From assembly GCF_016469035.1 (NCBI RefSeq), contig NZ_JAEHJZ010000026.1, positions 1 through 64,000 of the forward strand: a stretch of 64,000 nt of DNA, written 5' to 3'. A program made the position numbers and the translations under genes. This DNA comes from Gelidibacter salicanalis (GTDB taxonomy: Bacteria; Bacteroidota; Bacteroidia; Flavobacteriales; Flavobacteriaceae). The notes under the pieces were generated by a model. The model saw only the letters and a program-made list of their open reading frames with translations, was not told the origin of the DNA and searched no databases. The first letter of the stretch is position 1. The number at the start of each line of letters is the position of its first letter. Below, one piece after another: positions 8,652 through 51,887 of the stretch.

Positions 8652-8652
8652 A

Positions 8653-36080: not shown

Positions 36081-36119
36081 CGGATAATTTTGTCCTATTT
36101 AAAATTTAATGTATCTTTG
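36081..36119 (+). promoter_or_regulatory. Promoter of the Rrf2 gene with NsrR-like palindrome
   Basis: CGGATAATTTTGTCCT (36081-36096) is followed by a perfect -7 box TATCTTTG (36112-36119). The palindrome centre is 30.5 bp from the final G, i.e. over the -33 region, suggesting autorepression. The same 18-mer TTTTGTCCTATTTAAAAT, starting in the box, occurs upstream of nirK. Confidence 0.65.
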
Positions 36120-36140
36120 AACCAACAAAATAATCAATTT

Positions 36141-36575
36141 ATGTTTTCTAAAGCTTGCGAATACGGTCTTAAAGCGTCTATTTTTATAGCATCCAATTCT
36201 TATGATGGTGAACGTGTAAGCTTAAAGGAAATTGCAAAGGAAATCAATTCACCAGAAGCCTTTACTGCAAAAATACTACAAGATTTAGTAAGACATAAGA
36301 TTATCAATTCAGTGAAAGGTGCTTATGGTGGATTTGAAATTCCTAAAAATGAGATTTCATCCATCAAACTCTCACAAATAGTGAATGCCATTGATGGCGA
36401 TAGTATTTATAGAGGTTGTGGTTTAGGCCTGCATGTGTGCGATGAGAACCATCCATGCCCTGTACATGATCAATTTAAGGATATTAGAATGCAGTTAAAG
36501 GATATGTTGCAAAACACCAATCTTGAACAGTTGGCACTTGATATCAAATCGGGTGCAAGCTTTCTAAAATTATAA
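36141..36575 (+). CDS. Rrf2-family (NsrR-like) Fe-S regulator
   Basis: 144 residues from ATG 36141 (MFSKACEYGLKASIFIAS). An earlier in-frame ATG at 36078 lies upstream of the -7 box and cannot be the start. A winged helix (VSLKEIAKEINSPEAFTAKILQDLVRHKIINSVKGAYGGF) precedes three cysteines C93, C100 and C106 (CGLGLHVCDENHPC), the Fe-S cluster pattern of NsrR/IscR. The next gene is the di-iron repair protein Ric, a typical NsrR target, so NO sensing is the best guess. Palindromes of one type are found before this gene, ric, nos and nirK. Confidence 0.88.
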   Translation: MFSKACEYGLKASIFIASNSYDGERVSLKEIAKEINSPEAFTAKILQDLVRHKIINSVKGAYGGFEIPKNEISSIKLSQIVNAIDGDSIYRGCGLGLHVCDENHPCPVHDQFKDIRMQLKDMLQNTNLEQLALDIKSGASFLKL

Positions 36576-36596
36576 AAAAAAAATTTGAATACAAAT

Positions 36597-36645
36597 AGGA
36601 TAATTTTATCCGAATAAACACTTGTCTAATTTAACCCCCCCCCCC
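36597..36645 (+). promoter_or_regulatory. ric promoter: NsrR-like palindrome and C11 tract
   Basis: AGGATAATTTTATCCG (36597-36612) holds the perfect palindrome GGATAATTTTATCC. A weak -7, TAATTTAA (36627-36634), is followed immediately by eleven consecutive C residues (36635-36645), so the transcription start would fall in or next to the C run. The ATG is at 36683. Confidence 0.55.
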
Positions 36646-36682
36646 TTAAACCTCCTTATTTATAAAGGATTGGGACAGATTT

Positions 36683-37414
36683 ATGGAAACATTACAAAAA
36701 GATTCACAAAAACAAATCGGTCAATTTGTGGCTGAAGATTTTAGAACCGCAGCCGTATTTTCTAATTATGGTATCGATTTTTGCTGTAAAGGCGATAGAA
36801 CCGTTGAAGAGGTATGCACTAAAAACAAAATAGATATCGATGAATTATTAGGAAAACTAGAAAATATACAGTCCTCCAACAGTCAGCAGTCCATTGATTA
36901 CAAGTCTTGGCCCTTAGACTTACTGGCAGAATATATTGAGAAAAAACACCACCGCTATGTTGAAGAAAAAACACCAGTGTTGCGACAATTTTTAGATAAA
37001 CTCTGCAAAGTACACGGACAAAGGCATCCTGAGCTATTAGAGATTACAGCGTTATTTATTGGCTGTTCTAAAGAATTGGCAGCTCATATGAAAAAAGAAG
37101 AGTTGATCCTCTTCCCATTTATCAAACGTATGGTAAAAGCAAAATCAGATGGTACTCAAATTGAATCTCCTCAATTTAATACCGTTGAAAACCCAATCGC
37201 CATGATGAAAGATGAGCATGAAGCTGAGGGCGAACGTTTCAGAAAAATTGCAGAATTAACTGACAATTATACCCCACCTGCTGACGGATGTAATACTTAT
37301 AAAGTAACCTTTGCAATGTTAGAGGAATTTGAAAAAGATTTGCATTTGCATATTCATTTAGAAAATAACATCTTGTTTCCTGAAGCAATTAAGCTGGAAG
37401 CATCCTTAAAATAA
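36683..37414 (+). CDS. ric: Iron-sulfur cluster repair di-iron protein Ric (ScdA/YtfE)
   Basis: 243 residues. The N-terminal ScdA_N domain has VAEDFRTAAVFSNYGIDFCCKGDRTVEEVC with the Cys pair; the hemerythrin-like di-iron domain follows (about 75-243), with ligands in KKHHRYVEE, KVHGQRHPE, AHMKKEELILFPF, KDEHEAEGERF and HLHIHLENNILFPE. It repairs Fe-S clusters damaged by NO or oxidants. It follows the Rrf2 regulator and carries the same palindrome, so NO induction is likely. A large terminator hairpin follows. Confidence 0.93.
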   Translation: METLQKDSQKQIGQFVAEDFRTAAVFSNYGIDFCCKGDRTVEEVCTKNKIDIDELLGKLENIQSSNSQQSIDYKSWPLDLLAEYIEKKHHRYVEEKTPVLRQFLDKLCKVHGQRHPELLEITALFIGCSKELAAHMKKEELILFPFIKRMVKAKSDGTQIESPQFNTVENPIAMMKDEHEAEGERFRKIAELTDNYTPPADGCNTYKVTFAMLEEFEKDLHLHIHLENNILFPEAIKLEASLK

Positions 37415-37442
37415 TTTTTATTTGGTTTTGATTGTTGAAGTG

Positions 37443-37539
37443 ACACTTCCTTTTCATAACTCATTCTACTGTGCTACTACGTTTCTATGAGGGGAATTTA
37501 GCGCCTGTTAAATGAGTTATGATGGGAAGTGTTTTTTTT
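37443..37539 (+). terminator. Long-stem terminator after ric
   Basis: Arms ACACTTCCTTTTCATAACTC... (37443-37465) and its near complement AATGAGTTATGATGGGAAGT (from 37511) form a stem of about 22 bp with a 45-base loop, followed by T8 (37532-37539). The loop is unusually long for a simple terminator. Confidence 0.7.
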
Positions 37540-37581
37540 CTTTCTATTATTAGTAACTTTATGCGACCAAATTTACTTTAA

Positions 37582-38787
37582 ATGCAAAAAAAACTTATTG
37601 CTGTATGTCTGATCAACTTTTTGATCGCCGCTTTAATGGGTTTGGCATTACGCTACATTTTTGTACAACCTCTTGGCATTAATTTCAGATACCTTACGCA
37701 TGCACATTCACACGTTGCCATGCTCGGTTGGGTCTACTTAATGCTCTATCTTTTAATTGTACACTACTTTATTCCAGAAAAGAAACCCATTTACAACCGC
37801 TTATTTTGGGTAACACAATTTGCCGTTATAGGCATGATGGTAAGTTTTCCTTTTACAGGGTATGCTGCAATTTCCATTACATTTTCATGCTTGCATATTT
37901 TCTGTAGTTACTATTTTGTAAGATTGGTTTGGAAAAACCACAAAGTCACCTCCTCTCCCATCCGTAAGTTATTAAAATCATCTTTGGTGTTTATGGTGCT
38001 CTCCACCATAGGTGTTTGGTGCCTGGGTCCTGCCGTGGCCATTTTGGGTCAAGCCTCAGCATTTTATCAAATTGCCATACAGTTCTTCTTACATTTTCAG
38101 TTTAATGGTTGGTTTATGTTGGCTGTATTGGCTGTATTTCTACATCAATTTCCTATAGATAATTCAGCGCTATTTAAACAGTTTTTCAATACTCTTATAG
38201 CCGCCACCATCCTCACATTTGCATTGCCTGTAAGTTGGTTTTTATACCATCCATTATGGTTGATCATTAACGGATTAGGCGTTCTTTTACAACTGCTATC
38301 TGGCTATTATTTTATCCTATTGCTAAAACCACACTGGACTACCTTCTGGTCTGGAATTTCAACCCTGACCAAAGCGCTATATGGGTTGGCACTGATTTCA
38401 TTTATCCTCAAAATTGTACTGCAAACGGCTTCAATTATTCCACTAGTTGCTCAAATGGCACATCAATACCGTAACTTCGTTATTGGATTTATCCATTTAA
38501 TGATGTTGGGCGTTATCAGCGGATTTTTATTTGCATTTTTATTACAGAAGTATTCAAAAACAAACACTAACAAAAGCCTTAGTTTTGGTATTTATACTTT
38601 TATATTAGGGTTCGTTTCCACAGAAATATTACTCATTCTTCAGGGTATATTTTACTTTTTTGGATGGGGAATGTTGCCTCAGTATTATCTCATTCTGCTG
38701 TTATGCAGCATCTTTCTGCCCTTGGGCATCTTATTTTTCATTTTAAATCTCAGAAATTATGACACAAAAACCCTTAAAACGACATAA
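37582..38787 (+). CDS. Heme-copper-oxidase-subunit-I-like/NnrS-like membrane protein
   Basis: A 401-residue protein with about 12 hydrophobic segments. A His cluster THAHSHVAMLGWVYL (H40, H42, H44), FFLHFQFNGWFMLAVLAVFLHQF and NFVIGFIHLMMLGVISGFLF recall heme-binding helices of the oxidase/NnrS type, but the full CuB ligand set is not evident and there is no adjacent cytochrome subunit. It lies after ric and overlaps a hemerythrin gene by 29 bp, so it most likely belongs to the NO/oxygen stress response. It is not a recognisable NorB. Exact function unknown. Confidence 0.7.
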   Translation: MQKKLIAVCLINFLIAALMGLALRYIFVQPLGINFRYLTHAHSHVAMLGWVYLMLYLLIVHYFIPEKKPIYNRLFWVTQFAVIGMMVSFPFTGYAAISITFSCLHIFCSYYFVRLVWKNHKVTSSPIRKLLKSSLVFMVLSTIGVWCLGPAVAILGQASAFYQIAIQFFLHFQFNGWFMLAVLAVFLHQFPIDNSALFKQFFNTLIAATILTFALPVSWFLYHPLWLIINGLGVLLQLLSGYYFILLLKPHWTTFWSGISTLTKALYGLALISFILKIVLQTASIIPLVAQMAHQYRNFVIGFIHLMMLGVISGFLFAFLLQKYSKTNTNKSLSFGIYTFILGFVSTEILLILQGIFYFFGWGMLPQYYLILLLCSIFLPLGILFFILNLRNYDTKTLKTT

Positions 38788-39220
38788 AGCACTTCAACCT
38801 TTAAGTAGAGAGCACCACCACGGATTATTGCTGTCTTGGAAAATCAGAAGTGGATTCAGTAAAAACATTGAAACCAAGCGCATCAAGATCTATGCAGACT
38901 GGTTTTTTGAGAACCATTTGATCCCTCACTTTAAACTGGAAGAGACGCATATTTTTACCATTTTGGATGAAGACCACGAATTTGTCAAGCGCGCTTTGGC
39001 AGATCATAGACGGTTAAAACGTCTGTTCACCAATGGCGAAGATGCCACTAAAAATCTTCATAGAATTGAGGAAGAATTAGAGCAGCATATTCGTTTTGAA
39101 GAACGTACCTTGTTCCCTGAAATTCAGAAAGCAGCCACCGAAGAACAATTGGCACTCATTGCCGAAATCCATCATGAAGACGGCTTTGTAGACAATGTAG
39201 AGGATGAATTCTGGCGTTAA
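38759..39220 (+). CDS. Hemerythrin-domain protein
   Basis: 153 residues with iron-ligand candidates in LSREHHHGLLLSW, HFKLEETHIF, ADHRRLKRLF, HIRFEERTLFPEI and HHEDG. A hemerythrin/HHE-type di-iron four-helix protein, probably binding O2 or NO. It overlaps the end of the HCO-like gene by 29 bp, so they are translated as a pair. Its stop is 1 bp from the remnant TonB-receptor gene on the other strand. Confidence 0.88.
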   Translation: MTQKPLKRHKALQPLSREHHHGLLLSWKIRSGFSKNIETKRIKIYADWFFENHLIPHFKLEETHIFTILDEDHEFVKRALADHRRLKRLFTNGEDATKNLHRIEEELEQHIRFEERTLFPEIQKAATEEQLALIAEIHHEDGFVDNVEDEFWR

Positions 39221-39221
39221 T

Positions 39222-39484
39222 TTAATGGATAACAAAAGACATGTTCATATAAAAATTACGGCCTTGTCGCAAAATGTTGTTCCAATCCGCATAAGTAGAA
39301 TAACTCGCATCCAAAATGTTTTCGATTCCATATTTCAAAACAACATTATGGTTTTGAATGGTCAATTCATTCCCTAAATTCAGATTCAGAATTGCATATC
39401 CAGGTGTCTCATCTTCGCCATAAAAACGGCCATAGTTACTTTGGTTGCCATTCCCTTCCAACTGAAGCGCGGCATTAAAAAAAA
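39222..39484 (-). pseudogene. C-terminal fragment of a TonB-dependent receptor
   Basis: About 86 residues (FFNAALQLEGNGNQSNYGRF, then TPGYAILNLNLGNE, then LKYGIENILDASYSTYADWNNI) are the last beta-strands of a TonB receptor, ending in an aromatic-rich strand (RNFYMNMSFVIH). Upstream the frame is lost at the hairpin repeat at 39482. The rest of the receptor is absent. NosZ-linked copper receptors exist in other bacteria, but the substrate of this remnant cannot be told. Confidence 0.8.
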
Positions 39485-39565
39485 TCCACGAAAATCTCCG
39501 TAATCAGCGGGAAAATTAGTAAGCGTATGGACAAATTATCCCGCAGATCTCACCGATTTACGCTG
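39482..39565. repeat. Imperfect inverted-repeat element at the TonB gene break
   Basis: Arm AATCCACGAAAATCTCCGTA... (39482-39511, ending AGCGGGA) pairs imperfectly with TCCCGCAGATCTCACCGATT... (39538-39565). Such CGTAATCAGCGGGA palindromes are a dispersed type in Bacteroidota. It begins exactly where the receptor fragment ends. Confidence 0.6.
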
Positions 39566-39729
39566 AAAAACAAATATTCCATCTTTTTTAATGAAATATA
39601 CGTTATCATAATGAATCAATTTATATCCTTATGATATTTTACAGATAACCAAAAAAGAAAAAAACAAAGGTTTTTTTATACCGAAAAGAATTAACTAAAA
39701 TTTGGTAGAGGATTCTTGATATCTGGGAA

Positions 39730-40033
39730 TCAGGTGAGTTTCGAAATAAAAATGCGCATTTTGAAGTCTTGTGGGAACATCGTTTTAGCCGCTGCACGCT
39801 CTGTTTCAAATAAACCTAACACATCAAAAGACAGGCGTCTTGTTTCTTGAGCAGGCAAGTCTGTATTAGATTTTGGTGTACTTTGTTTGATTTCTTTGGT
39901 CAACTGGTACTTTCCGTTACAACCTTGCTGACTGTCTTTTGATACGGCTGTTTTTTGCCATAACGGCTTGGTTCGCTAAAAAACCGACAATAATCTCGAG
40001 GGTGTTGCTAGTATGTGTGATGCCTGCAATCAT
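39730..40033 (-). pseudogene. Remnant of an unrecognised short gene with an Fnr-type promoter
   Basis: After the promoter at 40038-40081 there is ATG 40033 (MIAGITHTSNTLEIIVGFLANQAVMAKNS), then a frame change. An open frame reads QKTAVSKDSQQGCNGKYQLTKE, then TPKSNTDLPAQETRRLSFDVLGLFETERAAAKTMFPQDFKMRIFISKLT, ending at 39730. I do not recognise the family. The frames do not join into one protein, so it is probably dead. The TonB fragment and a repeat lie next to it, so this 0.8 kb is a debris zone. Confidence 0.4.
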
Positions 40034-40037
40034 ATTA

Positions 40038-40081
40038 CAAATTTACGGACTAGGATCTCAACTTTAAGTGACAATGGTCAC
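40038..40081 (-). promoter_or_regulatory. Fnr-like promoter in front of the dead gene
   Basis: Perfect palindrome GTGACAATGGTCAC (40068-40081) and, on the minus strand, -7 box TAAATTTG (40038-40045). The box centre to last G is again 36.5 bp. The half-sites are TGAC/GTCA rather than TGAT/ATCA. Confidence 0.6.
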
Positions 40082-40105
40082 AATTTAAATGCCATCTGTA
40101 ATGCG

Positions 40106-40888
40106 TTAAAAATCCTTTTTCTTCGATTTATAGACGATTCGTAATACCGGTACTATTACCCATAAACTTAAGGCTATAAACGAAACAATCAAACCGTAAT
40201 TGGTGCCAAAAAACTGTTTAAAAATGGCGCCTGTATACCCAAGTAATGCTGAAATATCCAATTTCAACAATATCAAGGTTCTCGACAAATCTATAGGATT
40301 CAGCATGGTGCCAATTAAGGACACCTTATCTAGTGGATACTCTTCAAAGCCTATCAACACCAATAAGAAGATGCCGTCATAAATAACCGCTAAAAAGAGC
40401 CATAGCAAGATGGCATATCCAAATCCTTTGATCTTATTTTCATTCGAAAGTGCGATGTTAAAAGCGAGCGCAGTAAAAATTAAGGTCAAAAATGTACCCG
40501 TTATCAACAACAAGGAGAAATCCCAGATGGCACTACTCTCGAACAGCCCGTAGAACACAAATGGCAATCCCAATCCTAAGATTAAACTCATGGAGAGCGA
40601 AATAGCGACGCCCAGATATTGTCCTAAAAATATGGAAGAGCGTTTTAGCGGTTGCGCCAACAGGAGTTCTGTAAATTCTTTAGAATTGTAATAATACATT
40701 ACTCCAAAAATGGTTCCTATTAATGGCACCAGAATAATGATGACATTCATTAAGGTAATGACCGCTTTTGATAAATCGTTATTTAAGAATAACAAGACGA
40801 TGCCGAGCAGGAGATAAAATGCAAAATAGACATAACTCCAACGGCTGCGCATCAGGTCATAAAAACTATATTTTAATATTTTAAGCAT
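40106..40888 (-). CDS. nosY: Nos ABC transporter permease NosY
   Basis: 260 residues, six membrane spans, ABC-2-type permease of the NosDFY complex that supports assembly of the copper centre of N2O reductase. Motif GVMYYYNSKEFTELLLAQPLKRSSIFLGQYLGV is characteristic. It overlaps nosF by 8 bp and is the last gene of the nos operon. Confidence 0.92.
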   Translation of the reverse strand: MLKILKYSFYDLMRSRWSYVYFAFYLLLGIVLLFLNNDLSKAVITLMNVIIILVPLIGTIFGVMYYYNSKEFTELLLAQPLKRSSIFLGQYLGVAISLSMSLILGLGLPFVFYGLFESSAIWDFSLLLITGTFLTLIFTALAFNIALSNENKIKGFGYAILLWLFLAVIYDGIFLLVLIGFEEYPLDKVSLIGTMLNPIDLSRTLILLKLDISALLGYTGAIFKQFFGTNYGLIVSFIALSLWVIVPVLRIVYKSKKKDF

Positions 40889-41588
40889 GGTTGTCAGTTA
40901 AGATAGACGCAATAGCATGTTCAAAATCTGGCTGATTGGTCTTGGTTTTTAATTCTGATATGGTGCCTTTAAAGTAAATTTTACCTTCCAAAATGAAAAC
41001 TATTTCGTCTGAAATTTCTTCAACAAAACTCATAATGTGAGAGGTGATTAAAATGGTTTTTCCCTTTTCTTTTTCAACTTGGATCAAATCTTTTAAACGA
41101 AGCATTGAAATTGGATCCAAGCCTGAGGTAGGCTCATCTAAAATAATGATGGGACTGTCAAACATAAACGTCAACACGAGGTTCACTTTTTGTTTTGTAC
41201 CTCCCGAAAGTTGGCCTAATTTTTTATCCAAAAACGGCGTTAGTTTGAACAATTCTATCAAGCGTTCATCTTCTTTCGTGGATTTCCGTAAATCTTTAAT
41301 CATTTTAATGAGTTCCCTAACTTTTAAGTTACTTGGGAAATTTGCTATTTGCGGCAAATAATCAATCTGATGGCGGTAATCTGAATTCTGGGTAATGTTT
41401 TTACCCAAAACCGTAATCTCACCTTTATCAGGAATAACCATTCCTAATACCGACTTTATTAAGGTGGTCTTTCCTGAACCATTTGGCCCCAGAATGGCGA
41501 AGATGCCGCCTGCACCAATACTTAAATCCAGTCCGCTTAAGACATGGTTTTTTCCGAATTTTTTATGTAAACCTTGTATCGTTACCAT
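40881..41588 (-). CDS. nosF: Nos ABC transporter ATP-binding protein NosF
   Basis: 235-residue ABC ATPase: Walker A GPNGSGKTT (residues 34-42), signature LSGGTKQKV, Walker B IIILDEPTSGLDP and switch His in TSHIMSF. It partners with NosY and periplasmic NosD. It overlaps nosD by 7 bp and nosY by 8 bp, indicating tight coupling. Confidence 0.93.
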   Translation of the reverse strand: MVTIQGLHKKFGKNHVLSGLDLSIGAGGIFAILGPNGSGKTTLIKSVLGMVIPDKGEITVLGKNITQNSDYRHQIDYLPQIANFPSNLKVRELIKMIKDLRKSTKEDERLIELFKLTPFLDKKLGQLSGGTKQKVNLVLTFMFDSPIIILDEPTSGLDPISMLRLKDLIQVEKEKGKTILITSHIMSFVEEISDEIVFILEGKIYFKGTISELKTKTNQPDFEHAIASILTDNHA

Positions 41589-42817
41589 GTGGCTTTTTTC
41601 ATTAAAGGGTTATTGTCCAACAAATCATCTGGGGTGAAAACAGGCGATACTTTTTCAGAGAAATCAATAATATCGATAAACATACTCCGCAATAAAATGA
41701 TGGTTTCTGGAGTGCGATTGACGATGTATGAAAACAATTTCACCGGTCTATAAGGAATATCGCCAATCCCGTTTTTATTTAAATCATAACCGGTATAGCT
41801 GCTCCAATAATTTCGATCGAATGTATTGTCATTAACATTGCTGTTATAGGCAATATCAAAAGAGTTATATAAAAAATTGTTTTCGGTGAAGGTATTGGTA
41901 TAGCAGGCACCGCGGACTTTAATGGCCCAACCATTATTCCTGAAATTATTGTGTTTGTAAATAATGCGGTTAGATCCTTCTATGTTAATGCCAATAGTAT
42001 TATCGTGAAAAGTATTGCCAATTATTTCTGCATCGTTGATTTCTTTGAGCAACATACCGTAAGAAGCGGTTCCCCAATTATCCTTGAACAAATTATTATA
42101 CATCTTTATCCGTTTGGAAAACATGACTGCAACACCAGCGCCATTATTAGAAAATTCATTACCCTCATAGACATCGTCGTTAGAGAACATAAAATGCAGG
42201 CCATATCTCACATTTAAGGAGCTCAGGTTGTTTTTGATGGTACAAAAATCAGAGAATTCTAGATAAATGCCATCCCGCACGTGTTGAACGATATTATTTT
42301 CAATTTGAACATTCTTACTGTACCATAACTGAATCCCATTTCCGGAGTTGTATTCTTCTACCGCATCTCCGATGATCTTATTATTGAGGATCTTTCCGTC
42401 ACTAGATCTTTCAATATATATTCCGAAAAAAAGTTTTTCTAGAACAACATTTTGAATGGTGAAATTTTTACTTCTTTTCACACGAATAGCCGCATAATCT
42501 GCGGTATAACTTGTCCCAACATTTTTAATCATCAATCCGTCAATGGTTACATTGTCTGAGGTTATGGTGATAATTTCACCCTTCAGTTCTCCATCAATAA
42601 CAGGTTGATCCTTTCCGATGATGGTGAGGGGTTTATCAAAGTTAAGATTGTGTTCTTTATAAGTACCTTTCTTAACCACGATGGTATCAAATGCCTTCGC
42701 CTGGGTTATGGCTGCCTGCACTGAGGTGATAGCACAGGTTTTGCACACTTCTAAAGTTTGGGCAGTAGTTGCACCCGTCATCAACATGACGCTCATAAAA
42801 ACGACTAACTTTTTCAT
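41582..42817 (-). CDS. nosD: Periplasmic copper-site maturation protein NosD
   Basis: 411 residues: Sec signal (MKKLVVFMSVMLMTGATTAQ) then a right-handed beta-helix of CASH/PbH1 repeats (ITSDNVTIDGLMIKN, FTIQNVVLEKLFFGIYIERS, NKIIGDAVEEYNSGNGIQLWYS, NNIVQHVRDGIYLEFS and others). It works with NosFY in supplying the CuZ centre of NosZ. It begins 4 bp after nosL ends. Confidence 0.93.
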   Translation of the reverse strand: MKKLVVFMSVMLMTGATTAQTLEVCKTCAITSVQAAITQAKAFDTIVVKKGTYKEHNLNFDKPLTIIGKDQPVIDGELKGEIITITSDNVTIDGLMIKNVGTSYTADYAAIRVKRSKNFTIQNVVLEKLFFGIYIERSSDGKILNNKIIGDAVEEYNSGNGIQLWYSKNVQIENNIVQHVRDGIYLEFSDFCTIKNNLSSLNVRYGLHFMFSNDDVYEGNEFSNNGAGVAVMFSKRIKMYNNLFKDNWGTASYGMLLKEINDAEIIGNTFHDNTIGINIEGSNRIIYKHNNFRNNGWAIKVRGACYTNTFTENNFLYNSFDIAYNSNVNDNTFDRNYWSSYTGYDLNKNGIGDIPYRPVKLFSYIVNRTPETIILLRSMFIDIIDFSEKVSPVFTPDDLLDNNPLMKKATW

Positions 42818-42821
42818 GTGG

Positions 42822-43259
42822 CTAGCCTTTAAGATGCATTAGTAGTTCCTCCCAAGAATACAAGTCGCCGCCTTTTTCAGCTTGCATCTTCTCAGCATCC
42901 GCTGTGCTTTTAAAAGCTGAAAGATAAGCGCCCATAGGGCTTGGAATATTTTTACTGATCAAGAATGTAGCTTTTTTAGCATCAATCAACGTCCCTGGTT
43001 CTGAATAATCATTAGAGAGAAAAAGTTCGATCTCTGAAGTCTCAAAATCGTCCATAAAATTGACCATACATTCTGTAGCATCAAATTTATAGGCTTTATT
43101 TTTTTTGGTTACAAGTTCTGCAGCATGTGTCTTGTCTACAATGGTCATTTTACAAAAACTGCAGCCATCATTACCATAATCTATGGCTTTGGGAGACACA
43201 GTGCAATTGAACATGAATAGCAATAAGGCAAGAATTGAATAGTGTTTTAGTGTTTTCAT
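42822..43259 (-). CDS. nosL: Copper chaperone NosL, lipoprotein
   Basis: 145 residues with lipobox LLLFMFNC and the NosL copper motif DGCSFCKMTIVDKTHAAELVTKKNKAYKFDATECMVNF. An outer- or inner-membrane-anchored Cu(I) chaperone that delivers copper to apo-NosZ. It sits between the membrane-protein gene and nosD in the operon. Confidence 0.92.
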   Translation of the reverse strand: MKTLKHYSILALLLFMFNCTVSPKAIDYGNDGCSFCKMTIVDKTHAAELVTKKNKAYKFDATECMVNFMDDFETSEIELFLSNDYSEPGTLIDAKKATFLISKNIPSPMGAYLSAFKSTADAEKMQAEKGGDLYSWEELLMHLKG

Positions 43260-43289
43260 GAGTTTAGTGTTTTAATGCACGCATGGCGT

Positions 43290-44018: not shown

Positions 44019-44064
44019 AAAATAAACACTAAAACAAAATTTCCCTATCTGTTATTATTTAAAA

Positions 44065-46026
44065 TTAGTCACCTAGTGACCAAGACAATTCTATGTTGGA
44101 ATCTGCTGGAGACACACGAACATAGCCTTGCATTTCTTGGTGAAGTGCAGAACAGAAATCTGTACAATAGAATGGCCATACGCCAACTTTTTTTGGTTCC
44201 CAGGTTAAGGTTCTCGTTTGACCTGGAGAGATTAACAACTCGGCATTATTAGCACCAATCATCGCAAAACCGTGTGGTACATCAAAATCCTGTTCGAGGT
44301 TGGTCACGTGGAAGAACACTTTGTCTCCTACTTTTACCCCTTCTATATTGTCTGGTGAAAAGTGACTACGGATTGTGGTCATATACACATGAACGTTTTT
44401 ACCATCACGCACCACTTTAGTATCAGCATCAATAGTTGCTTTTCTTGGATGCTTGTTCTCTGCTAACCTGTAGATCTTTTTAGAATTATTTTTAATGATC
44501 TCTGCAGGAATGGCAGCTGCATAATGCGGTTCACCATGTGTTGGGAAATCTAATAATAATTCCATTTTATCTCCAGAAATATCATACAGCTGCGCTGAAT
44601 GCTCCATCTCTGGTCCTGTAGGCAAGTAACGGTCTTTGGTGATTTTGTTCATGGCGAACATATATTTACCAAACGGCTCTCTTGAGTTTCCTCCAGGAAT
44701 TGTTAAATGACCAACAGAATAGTAGGTTGGTTTTCTATCAAGCACTTCCCAAGTCCCTAATTTCCATTTTACAACTTCAGAAGAAATAAAGAAAGTGGTG
44801 TATGCATTTCCTTTCCCGTCAAATTCTGTATGTAACGGGCCTAAGCCTGGCTGCTCAACTGAACCTGCCAATACATCTTCAAATCTCAGGATTGGAATAC
44901 CGTAAGCATCACCGTCAAATTTTTTCTTTTCGATGGCATCCAACATTTTAGTAAATGAATGCACCGTTAGATTGGCTGATAATTTACCATTACCAACAAT
45001 ATATTCTCCTGATGGATCAACGTCACAACCGTGTGGCGATTTTGGTGTTGGCAATAAGTAAATTGCGCCAGGGATCTCTGCAGGATCTACAACTCGTACT
45101 TCTTTTTTCATGGTTGACGTTGCAGTATGCGTCGCTTCATCATGTAAGTTATGTGTGTATTCAGCTGGCATCATCTTACCACCGCCATTATTTACGTATG
45201 CTTCAATTTTTTTCCAATTGATAGCAGCAATAAAATCTTTATCATTTTGAGAGGCATTAACCTCTAGCAATGTGCTTGCCTCTTCTGTATTATAGGTCGT
45301 AAAGAAGAACCAACCGTGCGATTTTCCACGCCCAGGGTGTGATAAGTCATAGTTAAAACCTGGCATAAGAATTTGGAATTTGATATCCATATGTCCGTGT
45401 TCAGGATCTACAGCAATAAAGGTTAAGGCTCCTTTAAAATTACCTTTATAATCTTTAATTGGCATGTCTCTTTGAGGTACCGGCACAGAAAAACGTGTCC
45501 CCGCAACTACATACTCTGTGTTTTCTGTAATGAAAGAGGAACTGTGGTTTCCTGCACTATTTGGAACTTCAATAATTTCTTCAGTTTCAAATGTAGTCAA
45601 ACTGATTCTAGCAATACGTGGGGTATTGTTCCCATTGATAAAAATCCAACGTCCGTCCAGTTTTCCATTGGTTTGTGAAATGTCAGGGTGATGTGAATCA
45701 TCCCAAGGAACAAATCCAAAGGACGTTTCTAGCATCGGCTTGGTCTCTTCAGAATAGCCATAACCATTAGTTGGAAACTGGGAGAATACGGGAATTTCTT
45801 TAAACATACGTCCAGAAGGTAAGCCGTAAACCGTTAGGTTCCCGCTATATCCTCCGGAAATAAATGCGTAATGCGAGTCATGTTCACCTGGCGCCACGTA
45901 GACTTTTTCAGCAACATTACTTGCCAAAGCACCTGATCTGCCCTTTGATTTTTCTGAATTATTGCAACTTGTTAAACCCGCCAGGACAGCGACAAGAGCA
46001 ACTGTTATTTTTAATGTTTTTTTCAT
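44065..46026 (-). CDS. nosZ: Nitrous-oxide reductase, clade II type
   Basis: Reduces N2O to N2. 653 residues: a lipoprotein-type Sec signal (MKKTLKITVALVAVLAGLTSC) in place of the Tat signal of clade I, a seven-bladed propeller with many His (CuZ ligands, e.g. DDSHHPDIS, SPHGCDVDP, HTEFDGKG, HSAQLYD), and a cupredoxin domain with the CuA motif YCTDFCSALHQEMQGYV (about 615-631). It is third in an operon beginning with a cytochrome c and a fasciclin protein. No NosR is present, as usual for this clade. Electrons probably come from the operon's cytochrome c. Confidence 0.96.
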   Translation of the reverse strand: MKKTLKITVALVAVLAGLTSCNNSEKSKGRSGALASNVAEKVYVAPGEHDSHYAFISGGYSGNLTVYGLPSGRMFKEIPVFSQFPTNGYGYSEETKPMLETSFGFVPWDDSHHPDISQTNGKLDGRWIFINGNNTPRIARISLTTFETEEIIEVPNSAGNHSSSFITENTEYVVAGTRFSVPVPQRDMPIKDYKGNFKGALTFIAVDPEHGHMDIKFQILMPGFNYDLSHPGRGKSHGWFFFTTYNTEEASTLLEVNASQNDKDFIAAINWKKIEAYVNNGGGKMMPAEYTHNLHDEATHTATSTMKKEVRVVDPAEIPGAIYLLPTPKSPHGCDVDPSGEYIVGNGKLSANLTVHSFTKMLDAIEKKKFDGDAYGIPILRFEDVLAGSVEQPGLGPLHTEFDGKGNAYTTFFISSEVVKWKLGTWEVLDRKPTYYSVGHLTIPGGNSREPFGKYMFAMNKITKDRYLPTGPEMEHSAQLYDISGDKMELLLDFPTHGEPHYAAAIPAEIIKNNSKKIYRLAENKHPRKATIDADTKVVRDGKNVHVYMTTIRSHFSPDNIEGVKVGDKVFFHVTNLEQDFDVPHGFAMIGANNAELLISPGQTRTLTWEPKKVGVWPFYCTDFCSALHQEMQGYVRVSPADSNIELSWSLGD

Positions 46027-46052
46027 GGTTTCTGAATTTAGGTAAGTGTTAG

Positions 46053-46628
46053 TTAATTTTTAGCTGGCGGCAACAATACTTTGTCTATGATGTGGACAAT
46101 CCCGTTGCCTGCAGGTACGCTCGCAATGATTTTAGCACCACCAACCATCGGTTCGCCATCTATCACTTCTATCTGTACATCTTGATTATTGGCTTGTCCC
46201 AACTTTTTGAATTTCGTTAAGAACTCTTTCGAATAATTGCCAGGAGTTACATGGTATTTAAGAATATCAGCCAGAGCATTTTTGTTTTCTGGTTTTAATA
46301 AATTCTCAACAGTTCCCGCTGGCAAGGCATCAAAGGCTTCATTGGTTGGCGCAAATACCATTAGAGGACCTGCATTTACCAAAACATTCTCCAATTGTGC
46401 CGCTTGCACGGCTGCCACCAACGTAGAATGGTCTTTTGACCCCATAGCTATTTGTAAAACATTTGGAGTGGCAACATCATCTTCAATAAAAGCTTGACCT
46501 TTATTTTTGTCTTGAATTGATTCCGAAGTGGTTGTTTGTGCTTCTGGTTGTTGCTCTTTATTTTCCTTGCAGGACACAAACGCGACTACTAGAATAAGAA
46601 AGCTCAAAAATTTAAAACTTGTTTTCAT
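46053..46628 (-). CDS. Fasciclin (FAS1)-domain lipoprotein of the nos operon
   Basis: 191 residues: lipobox VVAFVSCKENK, then one FAS1 domain (ILQIAMGSKDHSTLVAAVQAAQLENVLVNAGPLMVFAPTNEAFDALP, then ILKYHVTPG and VIDGEPMVGGAKI, to GIVHIIDKVLLPP). FAS1 domains mediate protein-protein contact. Its place between the cytochrome c and nosZ suggests a scaffold for envelope electron transfer or assembly; this role is inference. Confidence 0.88.
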   Translation of the reverse strand: MKTSFKFLSFLILVVAFVSCKENKEQQPEAQTTTSESIQDKNKGQAFIEDDVATPNVLQIAMGSKDHSTLVAAVQAAQLENVLVNAGPLMVFAPTNEAFDALPAGTVENLLKPENKNALADILKYHVTPGNYSKEFLTKFKKLGQANNQDVQIEVIDGEPMVGGAKIIASVPAGNGIVHIIDKVLLPPAKN

Positions 46629-46639
46629 AAGAAAAATAT

Positions 46640-47131
46640 TTATAAGGTTCTAAAATACTCTAGTACAGCCCTTGCTTCCTCTTCAGAAAGATGTTGGTTT
46701 GCCATTGGCGCACCATTAAACTCCATCAGTAAATCTTTAGCAAGAGGATCTTGTTTAACCATCTCTTCAGGATTCAAAATCATGTTCATAATCCATTCCG
46801 GTGATCTTCGGGTTAAAATTCCAGTAGGAGGAGGACCAATGAACTTCTTATCAGCTTTATGACAGGCCGTACACATTTTTTCATAAACATCTTTTCCGTG
46901 AGCAACCATAGTTTGATCAATCTCTGTTGGAAGTGCTAACGACGTAATAGGCCCTACTCCTTTATTGTTCAACTCTACACGTTCAGAAGCTGGTACTTTA
47001 GATTTTGCTGGTGCTGCTTGTTCTGTAGGAGTGGATTTCTCATACGGAGAATCTTTCTTCTTCTCTCCATCTCCACACGCCATGAACAGCATCATGCCAA
47101 ATCCTGTAATAATCATTACTACTTTTTTCAT
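46640..47131 (-). CDS. Cytochrome c lipoprotein of the nos operon
   Basis: 163 residues with lipobox MLFMACGDGEK, a Lys/Pro-rich linker, one heme c site (CTACHK, with downstream GPPPTG and the likely axial Met in NGAPMANQHL). A class-I type monoheme cytochrome anchored in the envelope, probably the electron donor to NosZ. First gene of the operon, with a leader of about 80 nt after the Fnr-like promoter. Confidence 0.9.
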   Translation of the reverse strand: MKKVVMIITGFGMMLFMACGDGEKKKDSPYEKSTPTEQAAPAKSKVPASERVELNNKGVGPITSLALPTEIDQTMVAHGKDVYEKMCTACHKADKKFIGPPPTGILTRRSPEWIMNMILNPEEMVKQDPLAKDLLMEFNGAPMANQHLSEEEARAVLEYFRTL

Positions 47132-47216
47132 TGTTTTATAGTTTTGTTTCTAATTAAATTTCTTGCAACTCCGTTTATGATAACAAAACGCAAGCTTCAT
47201 TTTTGGTTTTCTTTAA

Positions 47217-47280
47217 CAAATTTAAAACCTTAAATGTTCAAAAAACATGATAAAAATCATATAAAGGACAATATTGTCCT
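47217..47280 (-). promoter_or_regulatory. nos operon promoter with Fnr-like and NsrR-like boxes
   Basis: Minus strand -7 TAAATTTG (47217-47224); Fnr-like perfect palindrome ATGATAAAAATCAT (47247-47260), centre 36.5 bp from the last G; second perfect palindrome AGGACAATATTGTCCT (47265-47280), centre 19 bp further upstream, at about -61 relative to the inferred start. The same arrangement occurs at nirK. Confidence 0.75.
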
Positions 47281-47452
47281 ATTAAAGGAAAGATTATTTT
47301 TCAATGTATCAGAAGCACAGCACCACTTCAAAACACATACACTATAACAACAACTTAAAATCATAACACAAAAAAAATCCCTCTCTATTCTATGGAGAAT
47401 ATTGAAGGATATTTTGGCTCATTATTCCATTACTGGAAAATTTGAACAAATA

Positions 47453-48706
47453 TTATTTAGTGTGTGTAAAAAGTTTTGGTTTAAATACAAACATTGCCCA
47501 AGCCCAATTGTTAGTAGTGTCATTATTACCGCCTTTAAGTAGTTGCATGGTGTCTGAAGCAAACATGTGTGAATACCCCAATTGAAAATCGATATTACCG
47601 GCAATTTTATAGCCCAAAGAAAAATCAATTTCGGTACCCAAATAATTATCTTGCTCCTCGCCCAAAAGATCTACAACCGTTGCTGCTGATGAAAATACGT
47701 GTGGTATGAGCTGCAGTGTCAATTTATCTTTCTGATATTTTATTGGCAGATTGACATCCACCAAGCCCACAGAATTGATATGGTTGCCCACATAGAAATA
47801 ATCCATCCAACCATTAAATTTATGATTGGTACCAAATAGCGGATTAAAAGCTTTTATATCAGAATCTGTACTGTTCATATCTGTACCTGACAAATATTCA
47901 GCTCCTATACCTATATTGAAGTTTGAAGTTGCCTGGTAATGTAAATTTCCGGACAAATTAAAAGCACTCAAATCACGATCAGCAATTTGTCCTGTTTGGA
48001 AATATACAGAAGCATCTGCCTTGATCCTATCCTTTCCGAAATCTAAAAATGCACCAATGGTTTGGTTATAATCTACTTCCTGATCACCATCTTTATCAAA
48101 CGTAAATCCTGTGTTTAAGGCTAACAGACTTAAATTAAAATTATCGAAGTTTGTGTGGTACCGTAAATATTGAAATGCTTTGTAATTATTGACGTTATAA
48201 TCCGTTTTAAAAAGGGTTTCGTCTTCTTCATTTAAGGCAATACCTAAATCAAGTCGATTTTTTGCATTGGGTTGATAGGTAGCAATAAAAGCATCATGAC
48301 TGCGTCCTGTTTGTGACCAATCGACATTTCCAAACATTCGAGAATCGTCATATATAATTTCCTGACGTCCCATTTTGAAGCTAAATAAAGAATCTAATTT
48401 AAAGGACGCCCAAGCTTCATGAATTGCAGTTCCATTTGCATCGCTAGATGATAACGTAGCCACCTCTCCCCATACTCTAATATTTTGCAAAGAGATATAA
48501 GCATTCAACTTTTCACTGCCGTAGTTAAAATTAAGCCGTGACCGTTGTGAGACAAAAGTAGCAGCATCTACATGATCAGGCATCAAGGTTTTATAGCCAT
48601 GCCGATATTCAACCCGCGGTCTTAATTGGAGATCAATACCAAATTCTTGCGCAAAGGTTGTGTGGCCCAACATGCCGAGGCATGCCAAAATGATTAGTTT
48701 TTTCAT
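47453..48706 (-). CDS. Alginate-export/OprD-like outer-membrane porin
   Basis: 417 residues with signal peptide (MKKLIILACLGMLGHTTFAQ) and a beta-barrel of the alginate_exp type: LRPRVEYRHGYKTLMPDHVDAATFVSQRSRLNFNYGSEKLNAYISLQNIRVWGE and KMGRQEIIYDDSRMFGNVDWSQTGRSHDAF. Last gene of the nirK-nirV-SCO group. In this context it may pass nitrite or another small ligand rather than alginate; substrate is unknown. Confidence 0.8.
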   Translation of the reverse strand: MKKLIILACLGMLGHTTFAQEFGIDLQLRPRVEYRHGYKTLMPDHVDAATFVSQRSRLNFNYGSEKLNAYISLQNIRVWGEVATLSSSDANGTAIHEAWASFKLDSLFSFKMGRQEIIYDDSRMFGNVDWSQTGRSHDAFIATYQPNAKNRLDLGIALNEEDETLFKTDYNVNNYKAFQYLRYHTNFDNFNLSLLALNTGFTFDKDGDQEVDYNQTIGAFLDFGKDRIKADASVYFQTGQIADRDLSAFNLSGNLHYQATSNFNIGIGAEYLSGTDMNSTDSDIKAFNPLFGTNHKFNGWMDYFYVGNHINSVGLVDVNLPIKYQKDKLTLQLIPHVFSSAATVVDLLGEEQDNYLGTEIDFSLGYKIAGNIDFQLGYSHMFASDTMQLLKGGNNDTTNNWAWAMFVFKPKLFTHTK

Positions 48707-48743
48707 GATTTTATGAGTTTTTTTTTAATTCAAATTACAAGAC

Positions 48744-49457
48744 TTATCGGCTTGCAATTGCTTCTTCAATATGTTTTACTGTGGCGTCAGAATTAACCCC
48801 AAGACCTTCTTGTTGGAACATCATTTCCCCTCGTTTGTTAAAAACACTAATAATATTTGAATGTGAAAAGTCTAAAGGTGAAATCTTTTTGTAATTGACA
48901 GCCATTACCGCTGCAAATTCTCGTGTATTATCTTCTGACGATCGCAGGAACAGCCAAGGTGCCTTATCCATAACATTCTCTTCAGCAAAAGCCTTTAAGC
49001 GTTCTGGCGTGTCAGTTTTAGGATCAATACTCACAAAAACCAATTTTAAATTGTCTTTTGCGTTTTTCGGAAGGCGTTCTTCAATGTTTCTCATGTCTGC
49101 CACCAATCTTGGGCAAGCAGCTTTACATGAGGTATAAATCATGACCATTACCAATACATCTCCTTTTAATTCTTCTAGTTGAAGATCTTCACCGTTTTGG
49201 TCAGTCCATGTAGAGGTCAGGTTAAAGATTGAAGTTTCTGAAATTTCATCAGAAGCCAATGCTATTTCCTTTTCAACGGGCACCAAATCCATATTACAAA
49301 CGGGGCAACTGCCAGGTTCATCATAGGTTTTATCACCTTCACACTCCATTGGGCAGTAGTAAGCTACAACCTCTTCTGAACTCTTGGATGAATCATTTTT
49401 ACAGGCGCTGAGGCCGATAAACAGGATGCTACAAAATATATAAAGTATTTTTTTCAT
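48744..49457 (-). CDS. SCO1/SenC copper chaperone with N-terminal heavy-metal-binding domain
   Basis: 237 residues: lipobox IGLSAC, a small heavy-metal-binding domain (YYCPMECEGDKTYDEPGSCPVCNMDLVPV, residues about 33-61), then a SCO thioredoxin fold with copper motif TSCKAAC (about 110-116) and the distal His in DFSHSN. Both domains bind Cu, and their fusion suggests handover from the small domain to SCO. It lies 1 bp after nirV and before the porin in the nirK operon, so it probably loads NirK copper. Confidence 0.9.
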   Translation of the reverse strand: MKKILYIFCSILFIGLSACKNDSSKSSEEVVAYYCPMECEGDKTYDEPGSCPVCNMDLVPVEKEIALASDEISETSIFNLTSTWTDQNGEDLQLEELKGDVLVMVMIYTSCKAACPRLVADMRNIEERLPKNAKDNLKLVFVSIDPKTDTPERLKAFAEENVMDKAPWLFLRSSEDNTREFAAVMAVNYKKISPLDFSHSNIISVFNKRGEMMFQQEGLGVNSDATVKHIEEAIASR

Positions 49458-49458
49458 G

Positions 49459-50238
49459 TTATTTAATGTTTTCAGCGTCTTTGGCGCATCTGAATCCTAG
49501 ATTTTTAATAGCATAGTTTGCCTTAATGCTCCCTCTAAAGGCGTAACGCATAAACGCTGCGTAATTCATTAAATCTGTACTCCCTAAGGAGGCGCTTCCG
49601 CAGAAAAGATTGTTATCTTTTTCATTGTCCTTTCGAGATTCTCCGGAAAGCAGTACGGAGTTAAAATCAGAAGTCCATTCCCAAACCAAGCCGTGCAAAT
49701 CGTGAACACCCCAAAAGTTTTTAGGGTTTTGTCCAATTACATTTTCATTAGATCGTGGTGCTTCATACCAGGACAAGATTTGTTCGTTGTATGATTTTTT
49801 AATCCGTGCATCCTTCAAAGTTTCGTCAGCCATAGCAGCATATTCCCACTCATCCATGGTTGGCAAACGTTTGCCCTGACATTCACAATAGGCTTTTGCC
49901 GCAAACCAACTCACGTAGGTCACTGGACTATTGAGCAGTTCGCTATCCTTAAGTTCAAGATCGTTTGTCCAATTTCTTAAATAAGAACCATCTGCAAATA
50001 TTTTTTTGGCTTTGGATTTTTGCCATTTAGGGAAGTTCTTAACAAAATCGAGATACTGTTTATTGGTTACAGGATATACATCCAATTCGAAATCTTTGAC
50101 TTCAACTACAGTAGAATCCCTACCGTAGAGTGGAATGTAGCGTGCACCGTCTATATGCGCCATACCTTCAGATTGTCCAAAACTAAACATATGGATAAAC
50201 ATCATTATAAAGGACAATCTGAAGATTTTGGTACGCAT
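49459..50238 (-). CDS. nirV: NirV-like formylglycine-generating-enzyme-family protein
   Basis: 259 residues with a signal peptide (FIMMFIHMFSFGQSEG) and the FGE-sulfatase fold: MAHIDGARYIPLYGRDSTVVEVKDFELDVYPVTNKQYLDFV, VTYVSWFAAKAYCECQGKRLPTMDEWEYAA and WEWTSDFNS, then GSASLGSTDLMNYAAFMRYAFRGS and LGFRCAKD. Genes of this family next to nirK are called nirV in denitrifiers. It is directly downstream of nirK. Biochemical role not known. Confidence 0.85.
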   Translation of the reverse strand: MRTKIFRLSFIMMFIHMFSFGQSEGMAHIDGARYIPLYGRDSTVVEVKDFELDVYPVTNKQYLDFVKNFPKWQKSKAKKIFADGSYLRNWTNDLELKDSELLNSPVTYVSWFAAKAYCECQGKRLPTMDEWEYAAMADETLKDARIKKSYNEQILSWYEAPRSNENVIGQNPKNFWGVHDLHGLVWEWTSDFNSVLLSGESRKDNEKDNNLFCGSASLGSTDLMNYAAFMRYAFRGSIKANYAIKNLGFRCAKDAENIK

Positions 50239-50356
50239 GACTAACTATCTTTAAACTAGGGTTATTATGTCTAGCTCACTAGTGTTAGTGTCTAGTTTAT
50301 TGTTTTAGAGTTGCAATCGCGTTTATTGTCGACTGTGGTGCTCCGCGTAAGTGCTG

Positions 50357-51802
50357 TTATTTGCCACTTACTTTTTTAACCATTGCTGGCGTTACGACTG
50401 TTTTATTATTACCCCAGCTGTTGTAGACATACGTCAATACGTTGGCCACTTCCTCTTGGGAAATCATTTGTTTGGTCATGATACTATTGTATTTCTCGCC
50501 ATTTACGGTGATTTCTCCACTTAAACCGTGTAGCACAGCATCAATAGCTCTGTCAACATCAGCATTTAGATAATCTGATTTTGCTAATGGAGGAAATGCA
50601 TTTGGGATACCCTGACCTTCTGATTGATGACAGGCAATACATGTTTGACCGTATATCTGTTTTCCAAACTCCATTTGTTCAGCAAACGATTTTGCAGGAA
50701 CATCAGACTCTTTAATTTCATCTGTAGTAGGCATGGTTTGAATTCCAGGACCTTCAGGCACATAGATACTCTCCATTAACTCTCCAGAAAATATTTTCTT
50801 ATTTTCTTCGCCTTCTACTTTCAACATGCCTAAGGCACCTTTGTTAAAAGCTCTAAAAATAGAGTGGTCTACTAAGATGAACGTTCCTGGTACTTCAACT
50901 TTAAACTCCACTATGGCTGCTCCACCAGCAGGAATCAAGGTGGTTTGAACGTTGGTATTCACGAGGTCTCCACCTTCTACATACACCCTATCAAAAATTT
51001 CACCGATAACATGGAACGACGACACTAAGCCAGGACCACCATTTCCAACGAATAATCTTACCGTTTCTCCTACTTTGGCAGTTAATGCACCATCACCAGT
51101 TAAAGATCCTACTTTACCGTTAAATACAACATAATCTGCTCTTTCATCAACAGCTTTTTGCATATCAAAAGGTTGCAATCCGCGTTCGCCATTGGCGCCT
51201 TTGGTATAAAAATCACCTTGCATGACGTAGTATTCTTTATCTACAGGAGGCAAACCACCTTCTGGTTCAATTAAAATAAGTCCGTACATTCCGTTTGCAA
51301 TATGCATCCCAACAGGTGCTGTAGCACAATGGTACACATAAAGACCTGGATTCAGCACTTTAAATGAGAACACTTTTTCGTGGCCTGGCGCAACAAAGGA
51401 AGATTCCGCTCCTCCACCTGGACCATTAACCGCATGCAAGTCAATGTTATGAGGTAATTTATTGTCAGGGTGGTTTTGTAAATGGAATTCAATTTCATCT
51501 CCTACCCGAGCTCTGATAAAACTCCCTGGAACTGATCCTCCAAAGGTCCAATATACATAGCTTACCCCATCAGTAATTTCTCCTACTTCTTCAAGGATTT
51601 CCATTTTTACAATAAGCTTTTTAGCTTTACGCTTCCCAACTGGGGTTGGCACATGTGGCGGTGCCGTTAATTCTGCAATCATCTCTCGACTGACTGGAAT
51701 TTCTTCTGCGGATGCATATTCGGTTTTTTTGTCTTCAAAGCAACTGAACATTAATAGTAATGACAGCAGCGACACTGATTTTAATAGGCTTTGTAATTTC
51801 AT
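50357..51802 (-). CDS. nirK: Copper nitrite reductase NirK with C-terminal cytochrome c domain
   Basis: Reduces nitrite to NO. ATG 51802 gives 481 residues with lipobox [12 protein letters not shown]. An earlier ATG (51826) lies upstream of the inferred start of transcription and is unlikely. Two cupredoxin domains carry type-1/type-2 copper ligands ([46 protein letters not shown]), followed by a cytochrome c domain ([29 protein letters not shown]) at about 380-465 that gives intramolecular electron transfer. The operon nirK-nirV-SCO-porin starts here. Confidence 0.95.
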
Positions 51803-51823
51803 GTTATAATTGGTTTTATAGTT

Positions 51824-51887
51824 CAAAATTAATTTTTTTAATATAGAAAAAACATGACGATTATCATATTTAAGACATTTTTGTCCT
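51824..51887 (-). promoter_or_regulatory. nirK promoter with Fnr-like and NsrR-like boxes
   Basis: Minus strand -7 TAATTTTG (51824-51831); Fnr-like box ATGACGATTATCAT (51854-51867), centre 36.5 bp from the last G; NsrR-like box AAGACATTTTTGTCCT (51872-51887), its centre 19 bp from the Fnr box centre. The predicted start fixes nirK translation at ATG 51802. Confidence 0.72.

Follow-up and report, generated by a model that had tools for sequence, protein, structure and literature searches.

A palindromic box of probable Rrf2-family regulators keeps its distance to the Fnr-like site at nos promoters of Flavobacteriaceae

NsrR regulons of Proteobacteria, Bacillus and Streptomyces include dnrN (ric/ytfE), norB and nirK, according to the consulted sections of one published account (PMC1274295). 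The same sections describe a repressor that likewise belongs to the Rrf2 family, the inclusion of nos in Photobacterium profundum, and control by DNR or FNR alongside in some species (PMC1274295). Here, we analyzed 64,000 nucleotides of Gelidibacter salicanalis (contig NZ_JAEHJZ010000026.1, positions 1 to 64,000; hereafter the window), in which a 16-bp palindrome (the box) lies at rrf2, ric, the nos operon and nirK. At both nos and nirK of the window, the box centre lies exactly 19 bp upstream of the centre of an Fnr-like site, as an earlier note on this DNA had claimed. Judged from its sequence context, the box very probably serves Rrf2-family regulators as their operator. The features at issue are listed below by coordinates and strand.

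36081..36096, plus strand: putative Rrf2 box CGGATAATTTTGTCCT of rrf2, centre 30.5 bp before the last base of the -7 element, over the -33 region; predicted autoregulatory operator.
36112..36119, plus strand: -7 promoter element TATCTTTG (TAnnTTTG) of rrf2.
36141..36575, plus strand: rrf2, Rrf2-family regulator of 144 amino acids with Cys93, Cys100, Cys106 and His109.
36597..36612, plus strand: putative Rrf2 box AGGATAATTTTATCCG, intergenic between rrf2 and ric.
36683..37414, plus strand: ric (ytfE/scdA), di-iron protein of iron-sulphur (Fe-S) cluster repair (TIGR03652, 241.5 bits, cutoff 204.7).
44065..46026, minus strand: nosZ, Sec-dependent nitrous-oxide reductase of the type called clade II (TIGR04246, 940.8 bits, cutoff 625).
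46640..47131, minus strand: first gene of the nos operon, a cytochrome c of 163 amino acids.
47247..47260, minus strand: Fnr-like site of the nos operon, ATGATAAAAATCAT (nos strand ATGATTTTTATCAT).
47265..47280, minus strand: putative Rrf2 box AGGACAATATTGTCCT of the nos operon, centre 47272.5, 19 bp upstream of the Fnr-like centre.
50357..51826, minus strand: nirK, copper nitrite reductase with a C-terminal cytochrome c domain (TIGR02376, 350.2 bits, cutoff 296.3).
51854..51867, minus strand: Fnr-like site of nirK, ATGACGATTATCAT (nirK strand ATGATAATCGTCAT).
51872..51887, minus strand: putative Rrf2 box of nirK (nirK strand AGGACAAAAATGTCTT), centre 51879.5, 19 bp upstream of the Fnr-like centre.

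The four boxes stand where the earlier note had placed them, including the one over the -33 region of rrf2. The -7 element at rrf2 was called from TAnnTTTG, which we take to be the Bacteroidota promoter consensus. The rrf2 frame starts at 36141, as opposed to the upstream ATG at 36078 given by a mechanical list of open reading frames (ORFs). The nirK ORF opens with a TTG codon, and an in-frame ATG follows 24 bases further in. A weight matrix for the box was trained on 62 boxes before rrf2 or ric from 46 loci in 45 genomes of the family, with nos and nirK sites excluded. Its consensus is the palindrome [AC]GGAYAAATTTRTCC[GT] (16 bp, 18.7 bits). After retraining on boxes from other genomes only (60 rrf2/ric boxes, two of them from one same-genus genome), the four boxes were the top four sites of the window with scores of 22.8, 22.8, 20.6 and 16.4, and the next site scored 9.4. 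At least one site scoring 16 or more occurred in 18 of 200 dinucleotide-preserving shuffles of the window. In a consensus search allowing up to three mismatches, 1.26 matches were expected and five were returned, two of which are the nos palindrome read on either strand. The consensus of this search was tuned on the boxes themselves, and the matrix from other genomes is the fairer test.

The 19-bp spacing is, from sequence comparison, conserved at nos in many genera and fades in more distant members. A match to the window's nos cytochrome was present in 195 of 299 genomes, and the survey took the 90 best-matching nos loci, which favours nearer relatives. In each 280-bp nos region the best box was chosen irrespective of spacing, and the distance was taken to the nearest Fnr-like site. 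A box scoring at least 8, a level reached by 1.7% of mononucleotide-shuffled nos regions, was found in 75 of the 90 loci, and 74 of these have an Fnr-like site as well. The two centres are 19 bp apart in 61 of the 74, 20 bp in ten, 18 bp in two and 27 bp in one. Fifteen loci score below 8, and in seven of them the best match, though weak, also falls exactly 19 bp away. A second set of named organisms, overlapping the first in part, gave a similar picture. There, 80 loci were fetched, 78 had the cytochrome gene and 65 had both sites, with spacings of 19 bp (55 loci), 20 bp (five), 18 bp (three), 20 bp on the opposite side (one) and 51 bp (one). A sequence-only model of the element, derived from 39 nos sites with the 19-bp spacing, matched 77 places in the 299 genomes at E <7e-7. 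The matches lie before the nos cytochrome gene in 70 cases, which are partly circular, before nirK in three (G000, G115, G245; G numbers denote genomes) and elsewhere in four, three of them on the nos contig 0.7-4.1 kb off.

The nos promoters share a fixed core around the two sites. TAnnTTTG was sought 25-45 bp downstream of the Fnr-like site in nos and nirK promoters, and 88 of the 90 nos promoters have it; in 86 of these, its last base lies 36.5 bp downstream of the Fnr-like centre. Such a fixed distance between activator and core promoter, seen also at nirK (33/35), is a feature of class II Fnr-type sites. By convention, class II activator sites are centred at -41.5. The nos Fnr-like site fits this position, which would put the box near -60. 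In the profile of the 61 nos promoters at 19 bp, the box, a 4-bp spacer (AAAT), the Fnr-like site, a T-run and TAnnTTTG stand out. Weaker A-runs precede the box and follow the -7 element, and most flanks are near background. A spacing of 19 bp is about the tightest packing of the two conserved motifs without overlap, and no spacings of 29-30 bp occur among the 74 loci. This tight packing and the lack of longer helical repeats suggest that the protein at the box and the Fnr-type protein either touch or exclude each other. In G114 (Flavobacteriaceae SAT49; loci L253 / L291), nos has an adjacent ric-type rrf2, and the element is naturally rearranged, with its box 20 bp downstream of the Fnr-like site. 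Second element-like sites occur about 0.7-4 kb from the nos promoter in G201, G217 and G253, and weaker ones in G074, G080, G104 and G229.

The box at nirK occupies two different positions among relatives. Boxes scoring at least 8 were found at 32 of 54 nirK loci, 30 of them with an Fnr-like site too. The box lies upstream of the Fnr-like site in six genomes, at 19 bp in the window, G168, G115 and G245, at 18 bp in G244 and at 17 bp in G013. G244 and G013 belong to the window's own genus, which thus holds spacings of 17, 18 and 19 bp. In 19 loci the box lies downstream of the Fnr-like site by 51-62 bp (about 55 bp), mostly 13.5-25.5 bp past the -7 element, which by its place is a repressor position. 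Five loci have the box at other distances. The nirK Fnr-like site keeps its place, 36.5 bp from the end of TAnnTTTG in 33 of the 35 promoters with the element (of 54). In a tree of NirK proteins, the upstream-box class falls inside a clade that also holds members of the downstream class, and the label needs two changes. The tree neither shows nor excludes a single origin of the upstream box. The earlier note had let its reading fall if the 19-bp spacing were not kept in relatives. The spacing is kept at nos (61/74); it is not kept at nirK, with 17-19 bp in the genus and about 55 bp on the opposite side in 19 genomes. One fixed spacing rule for nirK and nos together was rejected on account of these nirK distances.

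The position of the box relative to rrf2 genes ties it to the Rrf2 family. The box starts 42-63 bp before the rrf2 ATG in 41 of the 46 loci. The -7 element was found in 43 loci, and in 32 of them the box centre precedes its end by 30.5-31.5 bp, in the -33 region. The 25 best-scoring rrf2 orthologues from the other families in the class, none of them used in matrix training, have an upstream score of at least 8 in 19 cases and of at least 13 in 16. In 23 loci the starts of rrf2 and ric are no more than 550 bp apart, and 21 of these carry a box between the two genes; in most loci the ric box lies directly before the start codon. The Gelidibacter genome carries two more boxes, before a second rrf2-cupin-norB operon and before a cupin operon. 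At nos, a divergent rrf2 lies directly beside the box in 44 of the 90 loci. We regard the box as an Rrf2 operator because it precedes rrf2 across this and other families, ric and rrf2-cupin-norB, and has a divergent rrf2 beside it at nos.

The letters of the nos box vary with the type of Rrf2 protein. Where rrf2 adjoins, the box leans to AAGAY...RTCTT; where none adjoins, it is closer to the ric-type operator. The outer G...C pair occurs in 1 of 38 nos boxes with an adjacent rrf2 and in 18 of 36 without (Fisher, 1.8e-6). Matrix scores at the place 18-20 bp from the Fnr-like site have a median of 9.5 in the 44 loci with an adjacent rrf2 and of 16.1 in the 46 without (p 0.0018). The supposed recognition helix reads AFTAK in ric-type proteins versus AYIAK or AYLAK in most nos-type proteins. 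This co-variation of box and helix letters with Rrf2 type is the best sequence evidence that Rrf2 reads the box, and it upholds the earlier note's assignment of the box to an Rrf2-type regulator, along with the autoregulatory position across genera and families and the divergent rrf2 at nos. Rrf2 genes (E 1e-16) were found in 52 of the 54 nirK genomes versus 166 of the 299 genomes overall. With remote relatives included (E 1e-10), 95 of 149 family genomes have one.

The window Rrf2 belongs to the superfamily (PF02082, 85.4 bits, cutoff 30; TIGR00738, 86.6 bits, cutoff 73.3). It misses the equivalog cutoffs of NsrR (NCBIfam PRK11014, 29.6 against 182 bits) and of IscR (NCBIfam TIGR02010, 53.8 against 207.55 bits). 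By family cutoffs it is neither NsrR nor IscR, and by its predicted regulon it is NsrR-like. The closest solved structures by sequence are CymR (E 1.8e-6) and IscR (E 6.8e-5). Cys93, Cys100, Cys106 and His109, spaced CX6CX5CX2H, are invariant in 46/46 ric-type and 44/44 nos-type proteins. Both types hence have the three conserved cysteines of NsrR, and His109, invariant in all 90 proteins, completes a Cys-Cys-Cys-His set as in IscR, whose ligands are three cysteines and one histidine. From these invariant residues, the proteins are probably Fe-S-containing.

We suggest, as the moderately probable explanation, that an Rrf2 regulator represses at all sites and, at nos and at nirK with an upstream box, gates Fnr-type activation until nitric oxide (NO) or Fe-S damage lifts the repression. 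The regulator would represent a Bacteroidota group of the Rrf2 family, probably Fe-S-containing and working like NsrR. When NO is absent, it would sit on the DNA and repress its own gene from the box over -33, ric and the second rrf2-cupin-norB operon. In many relatives, nirK would be repressed from directly downstream of the promoter. At nos, and in the lineage-specific nirK arrangement of the window's relatives, the box would abut a class II Fnr-type site at about -60 from the start. There, masking of the activator or contact with it is the most likely way in which the regulator would gate Fnr-driven transcription. The block would then be lifted by NO or Fe-S damage, and nos and nirK would need both oxygen lack, acting through the Fnr-type protein, and an NO/Fe-S signal. 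Sites, conservation, geometry and the link to rrf2 genes are seen in the sequences; Rrf2 binding, the sign of the effect at every site, the transcription starts and NO as the signal are what we infer, the last from ric, norB, nirK and nos as targets together with the conserved cysteines. The box positions at rrf2, at norB and at nirK of most box-bearing relatives are, as far as sequence tells, those of a repressor. The nirK box moves between about -61 and a typical repressor position, so repression at both is the simplest reading.

Several observations weigh against this explanation. The nos box is held rigidly near -60, and a rigid place near -60 is the classical position of an activator. Boxes scoring at least 8 are missing from 22 of the 54 nirK loci. 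The nos boxes below 8 (15/90) include those of G115, G093 and G072, all with a ric-type Rrf2, and the box is therefore not essential at nos. In another set of 16 loci, most of them more distant and all with a verified nosZ nearby, only six have a box of at least 8, two at 19 bp, one at 18 and one at 28 bp upstream, and two downstream of the Fnr-like site. A hand tally found boxes at any place in 81 of 100 nos-type loci of Rrf2-bearing genomes (75/89 and 6/11) versus none of six in Rrf2-less genomes (G124, G031, G094, G078, G160, G279; Fisher 1e-4), an association that is confounded by relatedness. In this tally, nosZ was confirmed beside five of the six Rrf2-less loci and a minority of the 89, and genomes with no nosZ nearby were excluded (G035, G057 and G137, Rrf2-less; G084, Rrf2-bearing). 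The strict pattern GGAYANNNNTRTCC is not over-represented in the Gelidibacter genome (16 sites against 22 for the reversed control). Seven of these 16 sites were inspected; five are those at rrf2, ric, nos, the second rrf2-cupin-norB operon and the cupin operon, and two are intragenic. A looser pattern exceeded its control in two of six genomes (G013, 10 versus 5; G134, 9 versus 5) and fell below it in four. Given no genome-wide enrichment, the box was judged by position and conservation. Magnetospirillum NsrR activates mamH, with sites at -57 to -75 and over -35, and represses denitrification genes, according to the consulted parts of its description (PMC11014258).

Which Rrf2 protein acts at nos is a separate question. 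The nos box may be bound by a nos-linked Rrf2 where present and by norB- or ric-linked proteins elsewhere, and the window's ric-linked Rrf2 may then not act at nos or nirK. We hold such a division quite possible, if short of probable. The Gelidibacter genome has three Rrf2 paralogues, and the letters AFTAKILQ in the supposed recognition helix are common to the ric-type and norB-type proteins and differ in the third. The earlier note had spoken of a single Rrf2 protein; the type stands, and the singular is ambiguous with three paralogues, two of them sharing AFTAKILQ. The variation of nos box letters with Rrf2 type also fits a division among paralogues. Seven genomes (G006, G130, G141, G155, G209, G230, G282) speak against it, having a strong nos box, no nos-adjacent rrf2 and a single Rrf2 match (E 1e-16) that is ric-type, so a ric-type protein can be the sole candidate at nos. 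The second operon, rrf2-cupin-norB, lies at 7121-11023 of locus L058 (G000 contig C507) with the box preceding its rrf2, and directly 3' of norB is a gene for a Crp-like protein with a cNMP-binding domain. The third paralogue (locus L062, 5937-8784, G000 contig C284) comes after a membrane protein that matches COX1 weakly and that we read as NnrS-like, and after a small protein. No box was found there by the pattern used.

Co-activation is a doubtful alternative. An Rrf2 dimer at about -60 of nos and nirK would contact the Fnr-type protein, RNA polymerase or both, and would repress rrf2, ric and norB. At its most ambitious, and on rather unlikely terms, the two sites would form a rigid 40-bp element on which an Fe-S Rrf2 and a Crp/Fnr protein sit side by side, and across much of the family this pair would act as a joint NO/oxygen co-activator for clade II nitrous-oxide reductase. 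The same Rrf2 would repress its own and NO-defence genes, and nirK of the window's lineage would have a nos-type element in place of the relatives' downstream repressor site. Position and 19-bp rigidity at nos speak for activation, with 73 of 74 nos boxes at 18-20 bp, whereas the downstream nirK position is loose. The activating site of Magnetospirillum NsrR at -57 to -75, in what was consulted of that work, gives a precedent (PMC11014258). It is this precedent and the rigid placement near -60 that keep co-activation as a minority possibility. Against it, the nirK box is found at a repressor position in other relatives, a shift most simply explained by repression at both positions. Spacings longer by one helical turn are lacking among the 74 loci, and the other box positions look repressive. 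Furthermore, nos promoters without a good box still keep the Fnr-like site and the -7 element. The earlier note had proposed opposite outcomes by position, activation at -61 and repression at rrf2. This is unproven, and repression at both is likelier given the switch of positions at nirK. Placement at -61 was not accepted as proof of activation, the nirK box being found also at a repressor position in relatives.

The 19-bp spacing might be merely inherited by descent and have no function of its own, which we hold improbable. The nos promoters are homologous, the spacer letters are conserved too, and the geometry is less uniform in more distant loci. Most flanking positions are near background, however, and the spacing does change, by 1 bp in 12 of 74 loci and by more in one. 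The distance from the Fnr-like site to the nos gene start varies widely, and 19 bp is kept in both subsets, with an adjacent rrf2 (31/38) and without (30/36). That a different regulator binds the box, which would then stand at rrf2 by chance only, is very improbable, given the autoregulatory position kept across families, the divergent rrf2 at nos and the way box letters vary with Rrf2 type.

Three other Fnr-like sites of the window (ATGAYN4RTCAT) have no nearby box, with a best score of at most -5.1 within about 70 bp:

27087: Fnr-like site without a box.
29694: Fnr-like site without a box, upstream of the ORF at 29955.
54290: Fnr-like site without a box, upstream of the gene named hemN in the earlier note.

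The ORF at 29955 is called a cbb3 oxidase from that naming and our own reading of the sequence. The claim that the hemN and cbb3-type sites lack the box was borne out. In this AT-rich genome, the ric leader holds a run of 11 C at 36635-36645, past the Rrf2 box and ahead of the start codon. The run is absent from the sister genome G013 and could be phase-variable or an assembly error. A membrane protein of 401 amino acids without a confident family follows 3' of ric (37582-38787) and adjoins rrf2-ric in G013 too. Elsewhere in the genome, a box precedes a cupin-like gene resembling the norB-linked cupin (locus L059, 5003-8252, G000 contig C434). The genes that follow were read by eye as OsmC-like and AhpD-like, and this operon is a possible further regulon member.

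Clade II nosZ marks bacteria that are regarded as important sinks of nitrous oxide. The box provides the Rrf2 of clade II nos with a defined operator, a likely regulator family and a geometry with an Fnr-type site. The pairing of box and Fnr-like site is a candidate switch, open to testing, for an enzyme that consumes a greenhouse gas. The nirK promoters offer a natural experiment, with the same box at two positions among relatives, in which activation and repression can be told apart directly.

The combination of targets resembles NsrR-type regulons, as boxes lie at genes of both NO detoxification and denitrification (ric, nirK, nos and rrf2-cupin-norB). The NsrR motif gATGyAT-N5-ATrCATc differs from the palindrome found here, and the consulted sections describe no Fnr-like site that abuts the NsrR site at a fixed distance (PMC1274295). 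Neisseria aniA (nirK) is likewise under two inputs, with FNR essential and NsrR repression lifted by NO; it belongs to another group of organisms, and the parts consulted mention no fixed spacing (PMC10187123, PMC1802743). Magnetospirillum NsrR is reported to be a single Rrf2 protein with both effects, activating some genes and repressing others, the latter including napF, nirT, norC and nosZ; its recognition motif differs, and no composite with an Fnr site appears in the sections consulted (PMC11014258). Metagenomic scaffolds with clade II nosZ carry Rrf2 regulators in the same neighbourhood as here; neither operator nor spacing appears in the consulted parts, where the role of Rrf2 is called difficult to predict (PMC6264515). 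IscR shares the Cys-Cys-Cys-His pattern with the window Rrf2, which is set apart by its 53.8 of 207.55 bits, and no isc or suf genes were seen by eye beside the window rrf2. Open-access literature, covered mostly at the level of titles and abstracts, yielded no prior report of this operator motif or spacing. The kind of regulator, NsrR- or IscR-like, is known; the motif and the composite architecture of box and Fnr-like site are new.

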